Assembly: GCF_003947415.1 (NCBI RefSeq)
Contig: NZ_QHKL01000015.1
Span: 1-64,000 of the forward strand
Source: Amycolatopsis sp. WAC 01376
GTDB lineage: Bacteria > Actinomycetota > Actinomycetes > Mycobacteriales > Pseudonocardiaceae
Length of the DNA: 64,000 nt
Direction: 5' to 3'
Shown here in pieces: positions 3,907 to 60,901 of the stretch; positions within the stretch are counted from its first letter, which is position 1, and every line of letters begins with the position of its first letter. The notes beneath the pieces were generated by a model. The model made no database searches and was not told the origin of the DNA. It saw only the letters and a list, made by a program, of their open reading frames with translations. Position numbers and translations under genes: made by a program.

Positions 3907-4248
3907 ATGCGCTACCTGTTGCTGATCTGCGGGACCCCGTTCCCCGGTACGGACGACTGCGACGAACCAATGGACGAAAAGACGCAGGTGTGGGTCGACG
4001 AGATGACCGCTCGCGGGGTGCGATTGTCCGGCAGCAGACTCCGGTCGGCGGCCACCGCGACCACCATTCGCCACCGCGACGGCGAACTGCTCGTCTCGGA
4101 CGGGCCCTTCGCGGAGACGAAGGAACAGATCCTCGGCTACGACCTGATCGAGTGCGCCGATCTCGACGAGGCGATCGAGATCGTCTCGACGCATCCGGTC
4201 ACGAAGTTCGCGACCATCGAGATCCGGCCGATCTGGCCGACCCCCTGA
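3907..4248 (+). CDS. YciI-like (DGPF domain) protein
   Basis: 113 residues. It begins MRYLLLICG and contains the DGPFAETKEQILGYDLIEC segment that names the DGPF/YCII-related family, a ferredoxin-like fold often encoded next to ECF sigma factors. No sigma factor gene is adjacent here. ATG 3907 follows AAGGAGG. It may share a transcript with the NmrA-like gene 64 bp upstream. Its stop codon is the first base step of a long perfect hairpin. Confidence 0.87.
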   Translation: MRYLLLICGTPFPGTDDCDEPMDEKTQVWVDEMTARGVRLSGSRLRSAATATTIRHRDGELLVSDGPFAETKEQILGYDLIECADLDEAIEIVSTHPVTKFATIEIRPIWPTP

Positions 4249-4932: not shown

Positions 4933-6008
4933 GCCAACACCTCCGAAGCTGAAAGCGAAGCGTGCGTAGGCGCTTCAGGCACGTGCGCCGGACGAAGCGA
5001 GTCAAGTTCCTTGCGCAGCACCGGAATCACGTGCTCGCCGAGCAGATCGAGCTGTTCCAGCACGGTCTTCAGCGGCAGTCCGGCGTGGTCCATCAGGAAC
5101 AGCTGACGCTGGTAGTCGCCGAAGTGCTCGCGGAAGGTCAGCGTCTTGTCGATCACCTCTTGCGGGCTGCCGACGGTCAGCGGCGTCTGCTCGGTGAACT
5201 CCTCCAGCGACGGCCCGTGCCCGTACACCGGCGCGTTGTCGAAGTACGGCCGGAACTCCCGCACCGCGTCCTGCGACTTCGGCCGCAGGAACACCTGGCC
5301 GCCGAGCCCGACGATGGCCTGGTCCGCCTTGCCGTGCCCGTAGTGCTCGTACCGCTCGCGGTACAGGTTGATCAGCGACTGGAAGTGCTCCTTCGGCCAG
5401 AAGATGTGGTTCGCGAAGAACCCGTCGCCGTAGTAGGCGGCCTGTTCCGCGATCTCCGGGCTGCGGATCGAGCCGTGCCACACGAACGGCGGGACACCGT
5501 CGAGCGGCCGCGGGGTCGAGGTGAACTCCTGCAGCGGCGTCCGGAACTTGCCGGACCAGCTGACCACGTCCTCGCGCCACAACCGGTGCAGCAGGTGGTA
5601 GTTCTCGATGGCCAGCGGAATGCCCTGCCGGATGTCCTGCCCGAACCACGGGTACACCGGTCCGGTGTTGCCGCGGCCCATCATCAGGTCGACGCGGCCG
5701 TCGGCGAGGTGCTGGAGCATCGCGAAGTCCTCGGCGATCTTCACCGGGTCGTTCGTGGTGATCAGCGTGGTCGAGGTGGAAAGGATGATCTTCGACGTCT
5801 GCGCGGCGATGTAGCCGAGCATCGTCGTAGGCGAAGAAGGCACGAAGGGCGGGTTGTGGTGCTCGCCGGTCGCGAAGACGTCGAGGCCGACTTCTTCGGC
5901 CTTGAGCGCGATGCGCACCATCGCCTTGATCCGCTCGTACTCGCTGGGCGCCTCCCCGGTGGCCGGGTCGGTCGTCACATCGCCCACCGTGAAGATTCCG
6001 AACTGCAT
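4929..6008 (-). CDS. Luciferase-like flavin monooxygenase (CE1758-type)
   Basis: 359 residues of the bacterial luciferase-like (LLM) TIM-barrel family. Typical features are VFATGEHHNPPFVPSSP, DGRVDLMMGRGNTGPVYPWFG and LTVGSPQEVIDKTLTFREHFGD, the last being the flavin-domain helix. It oxidises an unknown substrate with FMNH2 and O2, presumably supplied by the overlapping FMN reductase. It is the first gene of the two-gene operon. Confidence 0.92.
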   Translation of the reverse strand: MQFGIFTVGDVTTDPATGEAPSEYERIKAMVRIALKAEEVGLDVFATGEHHNPPFVPSSPTTMLGYIAAQTSKIILSTSTTLITTNDPVKIAEDFAMLQHLADGRVDLMMGRGNTGPVYPWFGQDIRQGIPLAIENYHLLHRLWREDVVSWSGKFRTPLQEFTSTPRPLDGVPPFVWHGSIRSPEIAEQAAYYGDGFFANHIFWPKEHFQSLINLYRERYEHYGHGKADQAIVGLGGQVFLRPKSQDAVREFRPYFDNAPVYGHGPSLEEFTEQTPLTVGSPQEVIDKTLTFREHFGDYQRQLFLMDHAGLPLKTVLEQLDLLGEHVIPVLRKELDSLRPAHVPEAPTHASLSASEVLA

Positions 6009-21067: not shown

Positions 21068-21862
21068 CTAGCCGACGACCTTCTTCACCCAGTCCGCCTC
21101 GAGCTTCACGACCTGCCCGTTCGCGGTGACGGTCGGCGTGCCGAAGCCGGGTCCGTTGCCGAAGTCCTGCTGCAGCGCCGGATCCGTCGAGATCTTCTTG
21201 TACGCGTCCTGGATCTGCTGCTCGTAGGCGCCGCCGTTGACCGCCATCGCGAAGGCCGGGTCGGTGATGCCGACGTCCTGGCCGAGCTTGATCAGCTGCG
21301 CCTTGTCGAACCCGCGGCCGCCTTCTTCCGGCTGGTCCTTGAACAGCGCGTCGTGGAAGGCGAGGAATTTGCCAGCGTCGGCCGCGGCGAGCGAGGCGTT
21401 GGCGGAGTCCAGCGAGTAGCCCGGCGGGTCGGAACGCTGGTTGAGCATCGGCAGCATGTGGTACCGGACCTGCAGGGTCCCGTTGTTCACCTGCTCCTCG
21501 ATCTGGCCCTTGAACGACTCTTCGAACTGCTTGCAGACCGGGCACAGGAAGTCGGCGTAGATGTCGATGGACTTCTTCGCGTCGGGCTTGCCGACGACCA
21601 CGGCGGCCCCGTCACGTTTCTCCACGACACCGGGCGCCGAGGCGGTCGGTTGTGCCCCGATCACCTTGCCCTCGGTGCTGTCCTTGCTGGACGTCGTCCA
21701 GATCACGCCACCGATCACCAGCGCGGCGAGCACGACCACCGCGACGGTGATCGCGACGACCTTCTTCTTGTCGCCGCCCGCGACGCCCCTGGCCTGTGCC
21801 ACCGAGCGCGACGCGGTCTGCTGCTGCTTGCGTTTCCGAGCGTTGCGCTCAGCTCCACCCAC
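21068..21862 (-). CDS. Membrane-anchored DsbA-like thiol oxidoreductase
   Basis: 264 residues. A charged cytosolic tail, one membrane helix (~36-56), then an extracytoplasmic thioredoxin fold with the active site CPVC in IYADFLCPVCKQFEE and cis-Pro in GFGTPTV. It probably forms or shuffles disulfides in exported proteins. GTG start at 21862. The upstream MauE-like membrane gene ends 2 bp before, suggesting a redox pair. Confidence 0.9.
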   Translation of the reverse strand: MGGAERNARKRKQQQTASRSVAQARGVAGGDKKKVVAITVAVVVLAALVIGGVIWTTSSKDSTEGKVIGAQPTASAPGVVEKRDGAAVVVGKPDAKKSIDIYADFLCPVCKQFEESFKGQIEEQVNNGTLQVRYHMLPMLNQRSDPPGYSLDSANASLAAADAGKFLAFHDALFKDQPEEGGRGFDKAQLIKLGQDVGITDPAFAMAVNGGAYEQQIQDAYKKISTDPALQQDFGNGPGFGTPTVTANGQVVKLEADWVKKVVG

Positions 21863-28594: not shown

Positions 28595-29337
28595 ACACGA
28601 TATCTTCGGAATGGACCAAGTTCTGGTCGGTCCGGTCCACCTGGTGGTGCCTGATCAGCGGACTCTTCCTGATGCTCGCCTACTCCGGCGCGCTGGGCCT
28701 GGCCGCGAACGCCGGCGTCGAACGCTCGATGGCTCCGCACGCCGTCGTGGCCGGAGCGGCGTTCTATCTCACGCAGTTCGCCGTGGTCGCGCTGGCGACG
28801 CTGTTCATCACGAGCGAGTACGCCAGCGGCAGCATCCGCTCGACCCTGCAGTGGGTCCCGGTGCGGAACCGGGTCCTCGCCGCGAAATCGGCCGTCCTGC
28901 TGCCGGTGCTGTTCGGCTACGGCGTCCTGAACACCCTCGCCGGCGTGGCGATCTCGGCGCCGCTGATCCCCGACCGGGACTCCTCGGTGGGCGAGGTCCT
29001 CGCGACCTCGGCGGGCATGGGCGGCTACTTCGCGCTGCTGGGCCTGCTCTGCCTCGGCCTCGGGACGGCGCTGCGGAGCACCGCGGGGACGATCGTGACG
29101 GTCTTCGTGCTGCTGGTGATGATCCCGATGTTCGCCGGTTCGCTGGGCGGGGAAGACATCGTGAACTACTTCCCCGGCTTCGCGGGTGTCAACGCGATGG
29201 TGACCTCCGGCCAGCCGAACCCGATCTTCGGCGGCGTCTCGCCCTACGCGCCTTGGGTCGGCATCGCGCTCTGTATGGCGTGGGCGGCGGCCGGTCTGGT
29301 CACCGGCTCCACGGTGCTGCGGCGGCGCGACGCCTGA
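28591..29337 (+). CDS. ABC transporter permease
   Basis: 248 residues, six hydrophobic segments, of the ABC-2 type: MNTISSEWTKFWSVRSTWW and FITSEYASGSIRSTLQWVPVR are typical of single-domain permeases paired with bacitracin-type ATPases. Two such chains plus two ATPase chains would form the exporter. Its stop is 5 bp before the first hairpin of the composite repeat element. Confidence 0.88.
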   Translation: MNTISSEWTKFWSVRSTWWCLISGLFLMLAYSGALGLAANAGVERSMAPHAVVAGAAFYLTQFAVVALATLFITSEYASGSIRSTLQWVPVRNRVLAAKSAVLLPVLFGYGVLNTLAGVAISAPLIPDRDSSVGEVLATSAGMGGYFALLGLLCLGLGTALRSTAGTIVTVFVLLVMIPMFAGSLGGEDIVNYFPGFAGVNAMVTSGQPNPIFGGVSPYAPWVGIALCMAWAAAGLVTGSTVLRRRDA

Positions 29338-29579
29338 GGGAGAGCAAGGGACCTTTGCTCTCGTTTGTCTCGACATCGAGAGAAGCGAGAGCAAAGGTCC
29401 CTTGCTCCCTTTCCGCAGGTGACCGTGTGGGTTTCGGGACGTCAGATGTCCCAAAATCCACACGGTCAGTACGCATCGCTACGCGCAGTACAAGGTGTGT
29501 GGATATAGGGACACTCAACATCCCTATATCCACACACCCCCCGCCCGCCGAGGGGCGCGATAGCAAAGGTCCCTTGCTC
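29337..29579 (+). repeat. Composite hairpin repeat element, copy 1
   Basis: Ordered parts: 17-bp repeat copies at 29343-29359 and 29390-29406 facing each other (21-bp perfect arms with TCTCGACATCGAGA inside); a 20-bp-arm hairpin 29421-29467; a link AGTACGCATCGCTACGCG; an 18-bp perfect hairpin GGTGTGTGGATATAGGGA (29494-29511 with 29521-29538); a further 17-bp repeat at 29562-29578. The same order occurs inverted at 41976-42209. Lies between convergent genes. Confidence 0.85.
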
Positions 29580-29617
29580 CCCAACGCCACAAAACCACAG
29601 GTCAGCGCACCGGCGAT

Positions 29618-29634
29618 AGCAAAGGTCCCCCGCT
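29618..29634. repeat. 17-bp palindromic repeat at TetR 3' end
   Basis: AGCAAAGGTCCCCCGCT, two changes from consensus. It contains part of the TAG stop (29633-29635) of the minus-strand TetR gene. Confidence 0.75.
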
Positions 29635-30178
29635 ACCCCGCCACCCCGAGCCCCGCCAAAACCTCCCGCGCCCCTCGCGTCAGCTCCTCCAGACCGGGCG
29701 GCCGCAGCGAGCCGGTCCCGGCCAGCGCGTCGAAGACCGTCCCGTCCAGCCACGCGACGAGCACCCGCGCGTGCCGCTCCGGCTCCGCCGATCCGCATCC
29801 GGCGAGCACCTCGGCGCATCGCCGCCGGATGACCAGTCCCCCGCGGTCGTAGGCCTCGCGCAGCTCCGGCCGCCGCGTCGCCTCCAGCGCGAATTCGTAT
29901 CGCGCGAGCATCCGCGTCCGCCCGTTCGTGATCGCCGCGTGGGCGAACCCCGCCACGTACTCGGCCAGCCGTCCGGGCGGCGGATCGAGGGTGACCTCGT
30001 CGAGTTCGACCATCCGCGAGATCGCCAGCTCCAGCAGCGCCGCCCGCGTCCGCGCGTAATACGAGGTCGAGCCCGACGGCAGCCCGGCGAACCGGTCGAC
30101 GGCGCGATGTGTCAGCCCCCGCATCCCTTCGGCCGCGATCACCTCGATGGCCGCGTCCCCGATCGTCGCCTTTCGCAC
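29633..30178 (-). CDS. TetR-family repressor, divergent from FAD monooxygenase
   Basis: 181 residues from GTG 30178. N-terminal helix-turn-helix GDAAIEVIAAEGMRGLTHRA followed by VDRFAGLPSGSTSYYARTR (TetR with the SGSTSYY recognition-helix pattern). No ribosome site precedes the GTG, so translation may be leaderless. Divergent from the monooxygenase gene with a twin operator in the 43-bp gap. Confidence 0.86.
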   Translation of the reverse strand: MRKATIGDAAIEVIAAEGMRGLTHRAVDRFAGLPSGSTSYYARTRAALLELAISRMVELDEVTLDPPPGRLAEYVAGFAHAAITNGRTRMLARYEFALEATRRPELREAYDRGGLVIRRRCAEVLAGCGSAEPERHARVLVAWLDGTVFDALAGTGSLRPPGLEELTRGAREVLAGLGVAG

Positions 30179-41975: not shown

Positions 41976-42209
41976 GCGATAGCAAGGGTCCCTTGCTATC
42001 GCGGGCGACGGAGGTGTGTGGATATAGGGACGTTGAGTGTCCCTATATCCACACACCCTGTACTCCGCGTAGCGATGCGTACTGACCGTGTGGATTTTGG
42101 TGCGTTGGATGACCAGAAATCCACACAGTCACCTGCGGAAAGAGAGCAAGGGACCTTTGCTACCGCTTCTCTCGACGTTGAGAGAAGCGATAGCAAAGGT
42201 CCCTTGCTA
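41976..42209 (-). repeat. Composite hairpin repeat element, copy 2 (inverted)
   Basis: Same parts as at 29337-29579 in reverse: a perfect version of the 17-bp palindrome (AGCAAGGGTCCCTTGCT 41981-41997, 13-bp arms with GCGAT/ATCGC); 18-bp perfect hairpin 42013-42030 with 42040-42057, whose 9-nt loop is the complement of copy 1's save one base; the link; a hairpin at 42084-42131; and facing 17-bp copies 42145-42161 and 42192-42208 forming a 29-bp arm with one mismatch. It fills the hutH-iclR divergent promoter region. Confidence 0.85.
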
Positions 42210-52446: not shown

Positions 52447-52505
52447 GAGCAAGGGACCTTTGCTATCACTCTCTCCCGGAAAGTGATAGCAAAGGTCCCT
52501 TGCTC
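52447..52505. repeat. Facing pair of 17-bp palindromes with 24-bp arms
   Basis: Copies at 52448-52464 and 52488-52504 face each other. With their flanks they form a 24-bp perfect stem (52447-52470 with 52482-52505) and 11-nt loop. It lies between prfB and ftsE, 62 bp upstream of the ftsE start and 16 bp after the prfB stop, so it likely ends prfB transcription or limits read-through into ftsE. Confidence 0.8.
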
Positions 52506-60814: not shown

Positions 60815-60826
60815 CCTGCGAAAGAG

Positions 60827-60891
60827 AGCAAGGGACCTTTGCTATCGCCGGCCTCAAGAGTCGAGCCGGGCGATACCAAAGGTCCCTTGCT
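60827..60891. repeat. Facing pair of the 17-bp palindrome
   Basis: AGCAAGGGACCTTTGCT (60827-60843) and ACCAAAGGTCCCTTGCT (60875-60891) face each other between convergent PPA1309 and PDZ/Lon-like genes. They form a long imperfect stem with GCGAT flanks. Confidence 0.78.
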
Positions 60892-60901
60892 CCCCCGGCG
60901 G

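Follow-up and report, generated by a model that had tools for sequence, protein, structure and literature searches.

The window, by which we mean the whole 64,000-base stretch of DNA analysed here, holds two hairpin clusters that are separated by 12.6 kb and inverted to each other. The first (copy A, at locus A) sits where the genes for an ABC-2 permease, whose stop lies at 29337, and for a TetR-type regulator converge. The second (copy B, at locus B) is flanked by two divergent genes, which encode an aromatic amino acid lyase and an IclR-type regulator. A preliminary description had placed the clusters at 29337-29579 and 41976-42209, with the same parts in the same order and the second copy reversed as a whole. 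Our analysis confirmed both clusters and the claimed order of parts, and in copy B (41981-42208) the order as well as the orientation of the parts is reversed relative to copy A (Table 1). Alignment of the two copies gave 86% over query bases 7-242. In agreement with the proposed lack of coding capacity, our own gene finder predicts no gene over either copy.

Table 1 Positions of the repeat parts at loci A and B (window coordinates)
Feature	Position	Strand	Basis or remark
P>, 17-bp near-palindrome AGCAAGGGACCTTTGCT	29343..29359	+	5 nt past ABC-2 permease stop codon
P-loop-P hairpin: two inverted P, CTCTCGA/TCGAGAG tip	29342..29407		Fold
P<, second P, inverted	29390..29406	-	P scan
D hairpin, GACCGTGTGG stem	29420..29468	+	Fold
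Link TACGCATCGCTACGCG joining D and E	29470..29485	+	Sequence comparison
E hairpin, GGTGTGTGGATATAGGGA stem	29494..29538	+	Fold
P<, third P, direct repeat of 29390-29406, far side of D-E	29562..29578	-	P scan
P< variant at stop codon of convergent TetR-type gene	29618..29634	-	2 mismatches
Copy B P, 1 mismatch, nearly symmetric	41981..41997		P scan
Copy B E hairpin	42013..42057	-	Sequence comparison
Copy B link	42066..42081	-	Sequence comparison
Copy B D hairpin	42083..42131	-	Alignment
Copy B P>	42145..42161	+	P scan
Copy B P-loop-P hairpin	42145..42208		Fold
Copy B P<	42192..42208	-	P scan

Several of the parts required a more precise definition. The three 17-bp palindromes initially reported were found as P sites, but P falls short of a perfect palindrome by one imperfect pair. 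The reported CTCTCGA spacer hairpin is present as the tip of a longer hairpin formed by two inverted P (P-loop-P). The reported 18-bp perfect stem belongs to the E hairpin and holds for copy A, where one change beside the loop ends the stem at 18 pairs, but not for copy B, which has 19. The D and E hairpins look like variants of one hairpin. The 243 bases of copy A fold at -154.4 kcal/mol, compared with -78.3 (sd 4.4) for 200 shuffles (z -17), and the + strand of 29338-29411 folds at -62.7 kcal/mol. P gave 37 strand matches in the window (up to 3 mismatches) against 0.07 expected, representing 22 distinct sites. Two further P-loop-P hairpins with different loops lie at window 60826-60892 and 52447-52505. 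Other long hairpins occur in or beside gene gaps at window 4248, 21002, 25652, 2948, 54422 and 56929; the hairpins at 4248, 21002 and 25652 follow gene ends, and their stems recur elsewhere in the sampled sequence.

Copy number, taxonomic spread and placement relative to genes

A search with the whole unit returned many copies in the host genome and in sister species, not only the two in the window. In the host (9.07 Mb in 30 contigs searched), 12 places, window copies included, align with 149 or more of the 243 bases, and matches of any length number 97. At an E-value of 0.001 the unit matches 24/80 Amycolatopsis genomes, namely 19 genomes of one clade, defined by carrying the locus A gene with an identity of 89% or higher, and five with 1 to 8 matches at E-value 1e-7 or weaker. 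A plasmid search with the whole unit gave no match. The exact E hairpin was scanned in a GTDB-wide contig collection, from which the host's own record may be absent, and was detected in 67 stretches, all of them from Amycolatopsis and from species that include A. orientalis, A. azurea, A. thailandensis, A. roodepoortensis and A. keratiniphila. The E pattern is present in 17/80 genomes. P was scanned within the genus. Its pattern occurs 105 times in the host, 78 to 113 times in each of the 19 clade genomes and 28 times in a single genome outside the clade (G004), and it is absent from the remaining 60 of the 80 genomes; the reversed pattern, used as a control, gave 0 apart from one site in one genome. 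P, D and E were also found apart, with D and E in either order. The P sites are clustered, with 18/105 host pattern sites inside the 64-kb window against 0.74 expected. The dnaA gene was located in 8 genomes, and in seven of these, assemblies of one or two contigs, A and B lie ~1.2 to 2.5 Mb from it (rounded sizes, circularity assumed); this position did not account for the P cluster. Titles and abstract openings in a literature search named no such repeats in Amycolatopsis. In G004 degenerate P form tandem arrays with a 30-base period made up of the 17-base P and 13-base variable spacers (L244 747-913; also L242, L243 and L245).

Placement relative to genes was evaluated in 852,577 host bases, a sample that is biased because it was chosen mainly around matches and in which genes were called by our own gene finder alone, unchecked against annotation. 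The 156 long hairpins of this sample comprise 64 in convergent gaps, 67 in tandem gaps, 14 in divergent gaps, 6 at a gene edge, 4 at the end of a stretch and 1 in a gene, and their density per kb of gap is 3.69 for convergent, 1.27 for tandem and 0.50 for divergent genes. Hairpins other than P, D and E (110 in total) divide into 47 convergent, 45 tandem, 7 divergent and 11 other, while the 46 P, D and E hairpins divide into 17 convergent, 22 tandem and 7 divergent. Within tandem gaps, 53/67 hairpins lie nearer the upstream stop. The long hairpins fall into 14 families with at least two members plus 31 singletons, and a GGGAC-7 nt-GTCCC tip is common to several families.

The sampled P sites lie mostly between genes or at a stop, again as judged by our own gene finder. 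Classification was possible for 72/74 sites, 38 of which lie within 40 bases of exactly one stop codon (median 12.5 bases), 33 near no stop and 1 near two. The two strands of P differ in predicted stability (-14.3 vs -11.0 kcal/mol), the stronger form having a G-U where the other has an A-C pair. At single stops the G-U form is on the sense strand in 31/38 sites and on the opposite strand in 7 (binomial p 1e-4). This orientation preference suggests a role in RNA, but an insertion bias could also produce it. Regarding the traits of intrinsic terminators, P provides a GC-rich hairpin at the gene 3' end; a U-tract, taken as at least 5 T in the 8 bases past the stem, follows in only 3/68 P sites. 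A terminator scan found 8 matches against 4.6 (sd 2.3) expected, with a terminator-like match at 29340-29362 on the P of locus A. The mosaics are probably 3'-end hairpins, and P would probably serve termination or 3' protection; a terminator role is not obvious at locus B, which lies between divergent genes. The enrichment in convergent gaps and near upstream stops could also mean that these hairpins are ordinary bidirectional terminators under vertical inheritance, in which case the likeness of the loci would stem from an old duplication plus convergence, with no exchange.

Hairpin content of fixed sites across the clade

Loci A and B were read in the 19 clade genomes, with contents set by eye and P sites recounted. 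P is present at both loci in 19/19 genomes, and the hairpins beside it differ. At locus A, D-E occurs in 8/19 genomes, three of which also carry hairpin K. Among the other 11, K is found in four, M in one, N in one and the combination of M, E and K in one; the last four have none of these. At locus B, D-E occurs in 10/19 genomes (its D part interrupted by an N in G014), G076 has E alone, G038 has M, and 7 genomes have nothing more. Filled A sites carry P on both sides of D-E in 8/8 cases, all in direct orientation. Filled B sites carry P on both sides in 10/10 and in direct orientation in 7/10, the exceptions being nearly symmetric P in G000 and G007 and an opposite-orientation P beyond the N in G014. 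No P was found at locus B in 11/11 outgroup loci. The gap measures 84 to 109 bases in 7 of them; in the other 4 it spans 193 to 197 bases and contains another nested hairpin element. This nested element (L176, L178, L179 and L183) has GTGCGTC...GACGCAC hairpins and CCAATGTGGC-like repeats. The 11 outgroup loci read at locus A likewise have no P within 300 bases, and several of them hold other hairpins by eye, which is in keeping with vertically inherited terminators.

Further sites vary in a comparable manner. Locus C was found in 18/19 genomes and read over 400 bases (17 readable, G063 partial). D-E is found there in four genomes (G000, G045, G060 and G074) and D without E in G076; the remainder have other hairpins or just P. 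At least seven clade genomes, namely G007, G014, G015, G020, G024, G034 and G060, have a further D-E or E at a distance of 2.6 to 2.8 kb from locus C (for example G007:C27:78009 and G014:C1:8358377; around L205-L219). In G013 (L220) a short GCGCCAC-type tandem run adjoins hairpin K at locus C. The L011 site carries P-D-E-P in the host only, and 18/18 other genomes are without P in the 330 bases read. We do not claim a 30-bp repeat around this insertion as a target duplication, as its copies differ at 4/30 bases and the inverted repeat is missing on the right side. The L023 site, read at 17 loci (not found in G035, split in G015), holds D and E without P in the host, E alone in G045, and different hairpins or none in the others. 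The ~240-bp composite can consequently not be upheld as a single mobile unit, since its parts P, D and E are also found separately and the hairpins in the slot beside P vary by species.

The states of loci A and B are linked. D-E is present at both in 8 genomes, at A only in 0, at B only in 2 and at neither in 9, so that 17/19 genomes agree (Fisher p 0.0007, in a test that ignores the tree). G076 and G038 were scored as neither; G076 has E without D at both loci, and G038 has the same other hairpin at both. These states are scattered on the flanking-gene tree, in which 6/21 inner branches are well supported and 7 open. Both loci differ together between G000 and G063, G035 and G038, G014 and G026, G060 and G024, and G007 and G002; in G020 and G034 only one locus differs. 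The tendency of A and B to hold the same content fits exchange between P-flanked sites. Part of the correlation may be genome-wide, because all four genomes with D-E at locus C belong to the 8 with D-E at A and B. Against this, D-E lies 2.6 to 2.8 kb from locus C in other genomes, and three of those have none at A.

Sequence distances were compared in the 7 genomes whose D-E could be read at A as well as at B, G014 being left out because of the N. The A-B distance averaged 0.162 within the same genome and 0.212 between different genomes, with 16/5040 pairings as good. This likeness comes mainly from G060 (0.06) and G035 (0.08), the 2/7 genomes in which the same-genome partner is nearest; in the other five, the B of some other genome is at least as close, and for G074 and G007 the orthologues are far closer than A and B of the same genome. 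The P-loop-P dyads at A and B displayed no within-genome excess likeness (4642/20000 permutations, 8 genomes), and homogenisation of the E stem allele by species was not seen (2045/5000 permutations). The unit had originally been suggested to be mobile or gene-converting. Its within-genome A/B likeness fits exchange at a weak to moderate level, but not the exchange of one 240-bp unit, and we read the overall pattern as occasional exchange, not steady homogenisation.

These results speak against ordinary terminators that are only inherited vertically. Many loci share the same stems, close genomes differ in D-E at fixed sites, A and B resemble each other within genomes, and the L011 site is filled in the host alone. 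We consider vertical inheritance with convergence an improbable explanation.

Stem covariation and a TA-flanked inverted-repeat unit

Two outcomes run counter to the refutation proposed in the preliminary description: the copies number more than two, and the covariation check found one strongly covarying, compensatory position, pair 11/35 of the E stem. This pair is A-T in 42, T-A in 15, G-C in 2, C-G in 1 and unpaired in 2 of the 62 distinct hairpins among 108 collected, in counts that are not independent events because the set includes orthologues. The position is thus paired in 60/62 distinct hairpins, by four pair types, against 55% expected with independent arms, under a scan pattern that left both sides of this pair free and most other pairs fixed. 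Most other E pairs lie near the expectation without covariation (overall 1114/1178 cells paired vs 1073 expected), the D stem has 1186/1440 cells paired vs 1153 expected, and D pair 15/33 is C-A in 44/72 distinct copies. In several genomes the locus B stem is ATAT, AAAT or ATTT, each faced by its matching partner, but G045 has an unmatched pair there. The E stem flips do not prove selection on RNA. Template switching is expected to give symmetric flips of this kind, for instance from A-T to T-A (PMC8794818), and PMC3116915 describes compensatory changes as common in REPINs. The template switching of the former source, which creates and mends hairpins, resembles the present case in its paired symmetric stem changes; the changes described here were deduced from aligned copies rather than from reconstructed events.

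The very stable fold and the covarying E pair might suggest that D-link-E is a conserved two-hairpin functional RNA with its own promoter. Several results disagree with this. The link is poorly kept, D pair 15/33 is frequently C-A, and D and E are found apart and in either order. Rfam gave 8 matches up to E-value 1 in 28900-30000, none at gathering score, and the best of them (mir-2041, E-value 3e-8, 48 bits against a cut-off of 70) lies on P-loop-P and not on D-E. A promoter scan found 0 where only 0.4 were expected and so has little power. We regard a functional D-link-E RNA as very improbable. MicroRNA families account for 6/8 of the Rfam matches at locus A; these are sub-threshold and were taken as chance likeness of perfect hairpins.

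A subset of D-E copies lies within a different structure. Subfamily-2 host copies, which have a different link (L012, L015, L016, L025, L027 and L032), adjoin inverted ends like GGCCGTGTCCTGCAAGT. Among 18 pattern matches to such ends in the loci scanned, 10 were taken as real by their surroundings, two of them in A. azurea (L069), and 9/10 are flanked by TA. Of the host copies, L016 and L025 show both ends. The interiors of L025 and L012 match the 3' terminus of the gene on the left at locus C, together with P and D-E, and in L025 the match includes the stop codon; L015 and L016 are without the gene piece. Judging by this gene piece, one D-E lineage was seemingly picked up with a gene end and then dispersed by a putative non-autonomous transposon. 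A ~160-base unit with the same inverted ends and TA on both sides lies at 5524-5685 of A. azurea L069.

MITEs are bounded by terminal inverted repeats, and the subfamily-2 copies resemble them in lying between inverted repeats next to TA. A transposase acting on these repeats could therefore be proposed to spread the whole composite, with P, D and E as mere passengers, and the matching interiors of L012 and L025 are compatible with such a process. The window copies differ from MITEs: the sole window match to the ends (up to 2 mismatches), at 21401, is located inside a gene, so copies A and B are without them. In addition, P, D and E also occur outside the inverted-repeat unit, the gene piece is absent from L015 and L016, and no parent insertion sequence was found in a plasmid search, which gave weak hits only. 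Spread as a MITE alone appears rather unlikely.

Proposed exchange of hairpin cassettes and comparison with known systems

We lean slightly towards an account in which the repeats are dispersed hairpin mosaics of the A. orientalis group, with P at transcript ends and cassettes exchanged between P-flanked sites. P is a REP-like hairpin, often placed just 3' of a stop codon and in the orientation whose sense RNA would form the stronger (G-U) hairpin, and it probably acts at transcript ends through termination or 3' protection. Two inverted P make up a REPIN-like dyad, and D-link-E is a two-hairpin cassette with P on either side. Cassettes beside P would be gained, lost and replaced with the flanking genes unmoved, through an exchange between P-flanked sites by recombination or template switching, the enzymes, route and direction of which we infer. 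Either template-switch correction or selection may keep the arms matched. Some D-E copies would also be carried, after a presumed capture, inside the TA-flanked inverted-repeat unit together with a gene end and P.

A broader version of this account, which we offer only tentatively, is that P sites are genome-wide slots, where P would be both a 3'-end hairpin and a recognition or homology site, and each cassette would travel as one or more hairpins with one P. Since the P frame is self-inverted, copying between loci could then take place in either orientation. If the slot reading is true, terminator-like hairpins would be swapped like array cassettes without an integrase or a RAYT. This lineage combines REPIN-like dyads, many long hairpins and frequent hairpin replacement at fixed gene ends, although a search of 8 genomes found no Y1 gene, and its 19 close genomes with filled, empty and replaced sites constitute a natural experiment on hairpin spread, symmetry and exchange.

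REP-like repeats are usually explained by RAYT transposases, and Y1 subclass 1.1 is the IS200 type. The resemblance to BIMEs and REPINs that was proposed at the outset is borne out by the build of the repeats, but REPIN membership fails on the transposase in the 8 genomes searched. REPINs, as presented in PMC3116915, are extragenic near-palindromes of high copy number that occur in clusters and in inverted pairs forming a hairpin. P-loop-P likewise places two inverted REP-like sequences with a spacer in one hairpin, and P is mostly extragenic and numerous in the host and in every clade genome. True REPINs, with the P dyad as a miniature element moved in trans by a RAYT and D and E as other REPIN groups, would account for these features and for the compensatory changes. 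The search for a cognate RAYT gave PF01797 (Y1_Tnp) matches in 0/8 clade genomes searched, with a control that was positive in 5/14 known genomes, and the Actinobacteridae in the sample of PMC6006769 have only Y1 subclass 1.1 members. Furthermore, a foot bearing the GTAG tag (GCTAC) was present in just 9/68 P sites, and GCTATCGC in 28/68. The present repeats also differ from REPINs in having other hairpins beside or between the P sites. We judge true REPINs to be distinctly improbable, and as the RAYT test fails in the 8 genomes searched, the family is classed as an extragenic palindromic mosaic and not as a REPIN.

The BIMEs of enterobacteria are mosaics of alternately oriented palindromic units with other motifs between them. 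The repeats described here have the same alternation of palindromic units and interspersed motifs; unlike in BIMEs, the intervening modules are long hairpins that belong to several families and vary between species at one site. Our best reading of these sequences is that they represent RAYT-less REP/BIME-like mosaics with exchangeable cassettes.
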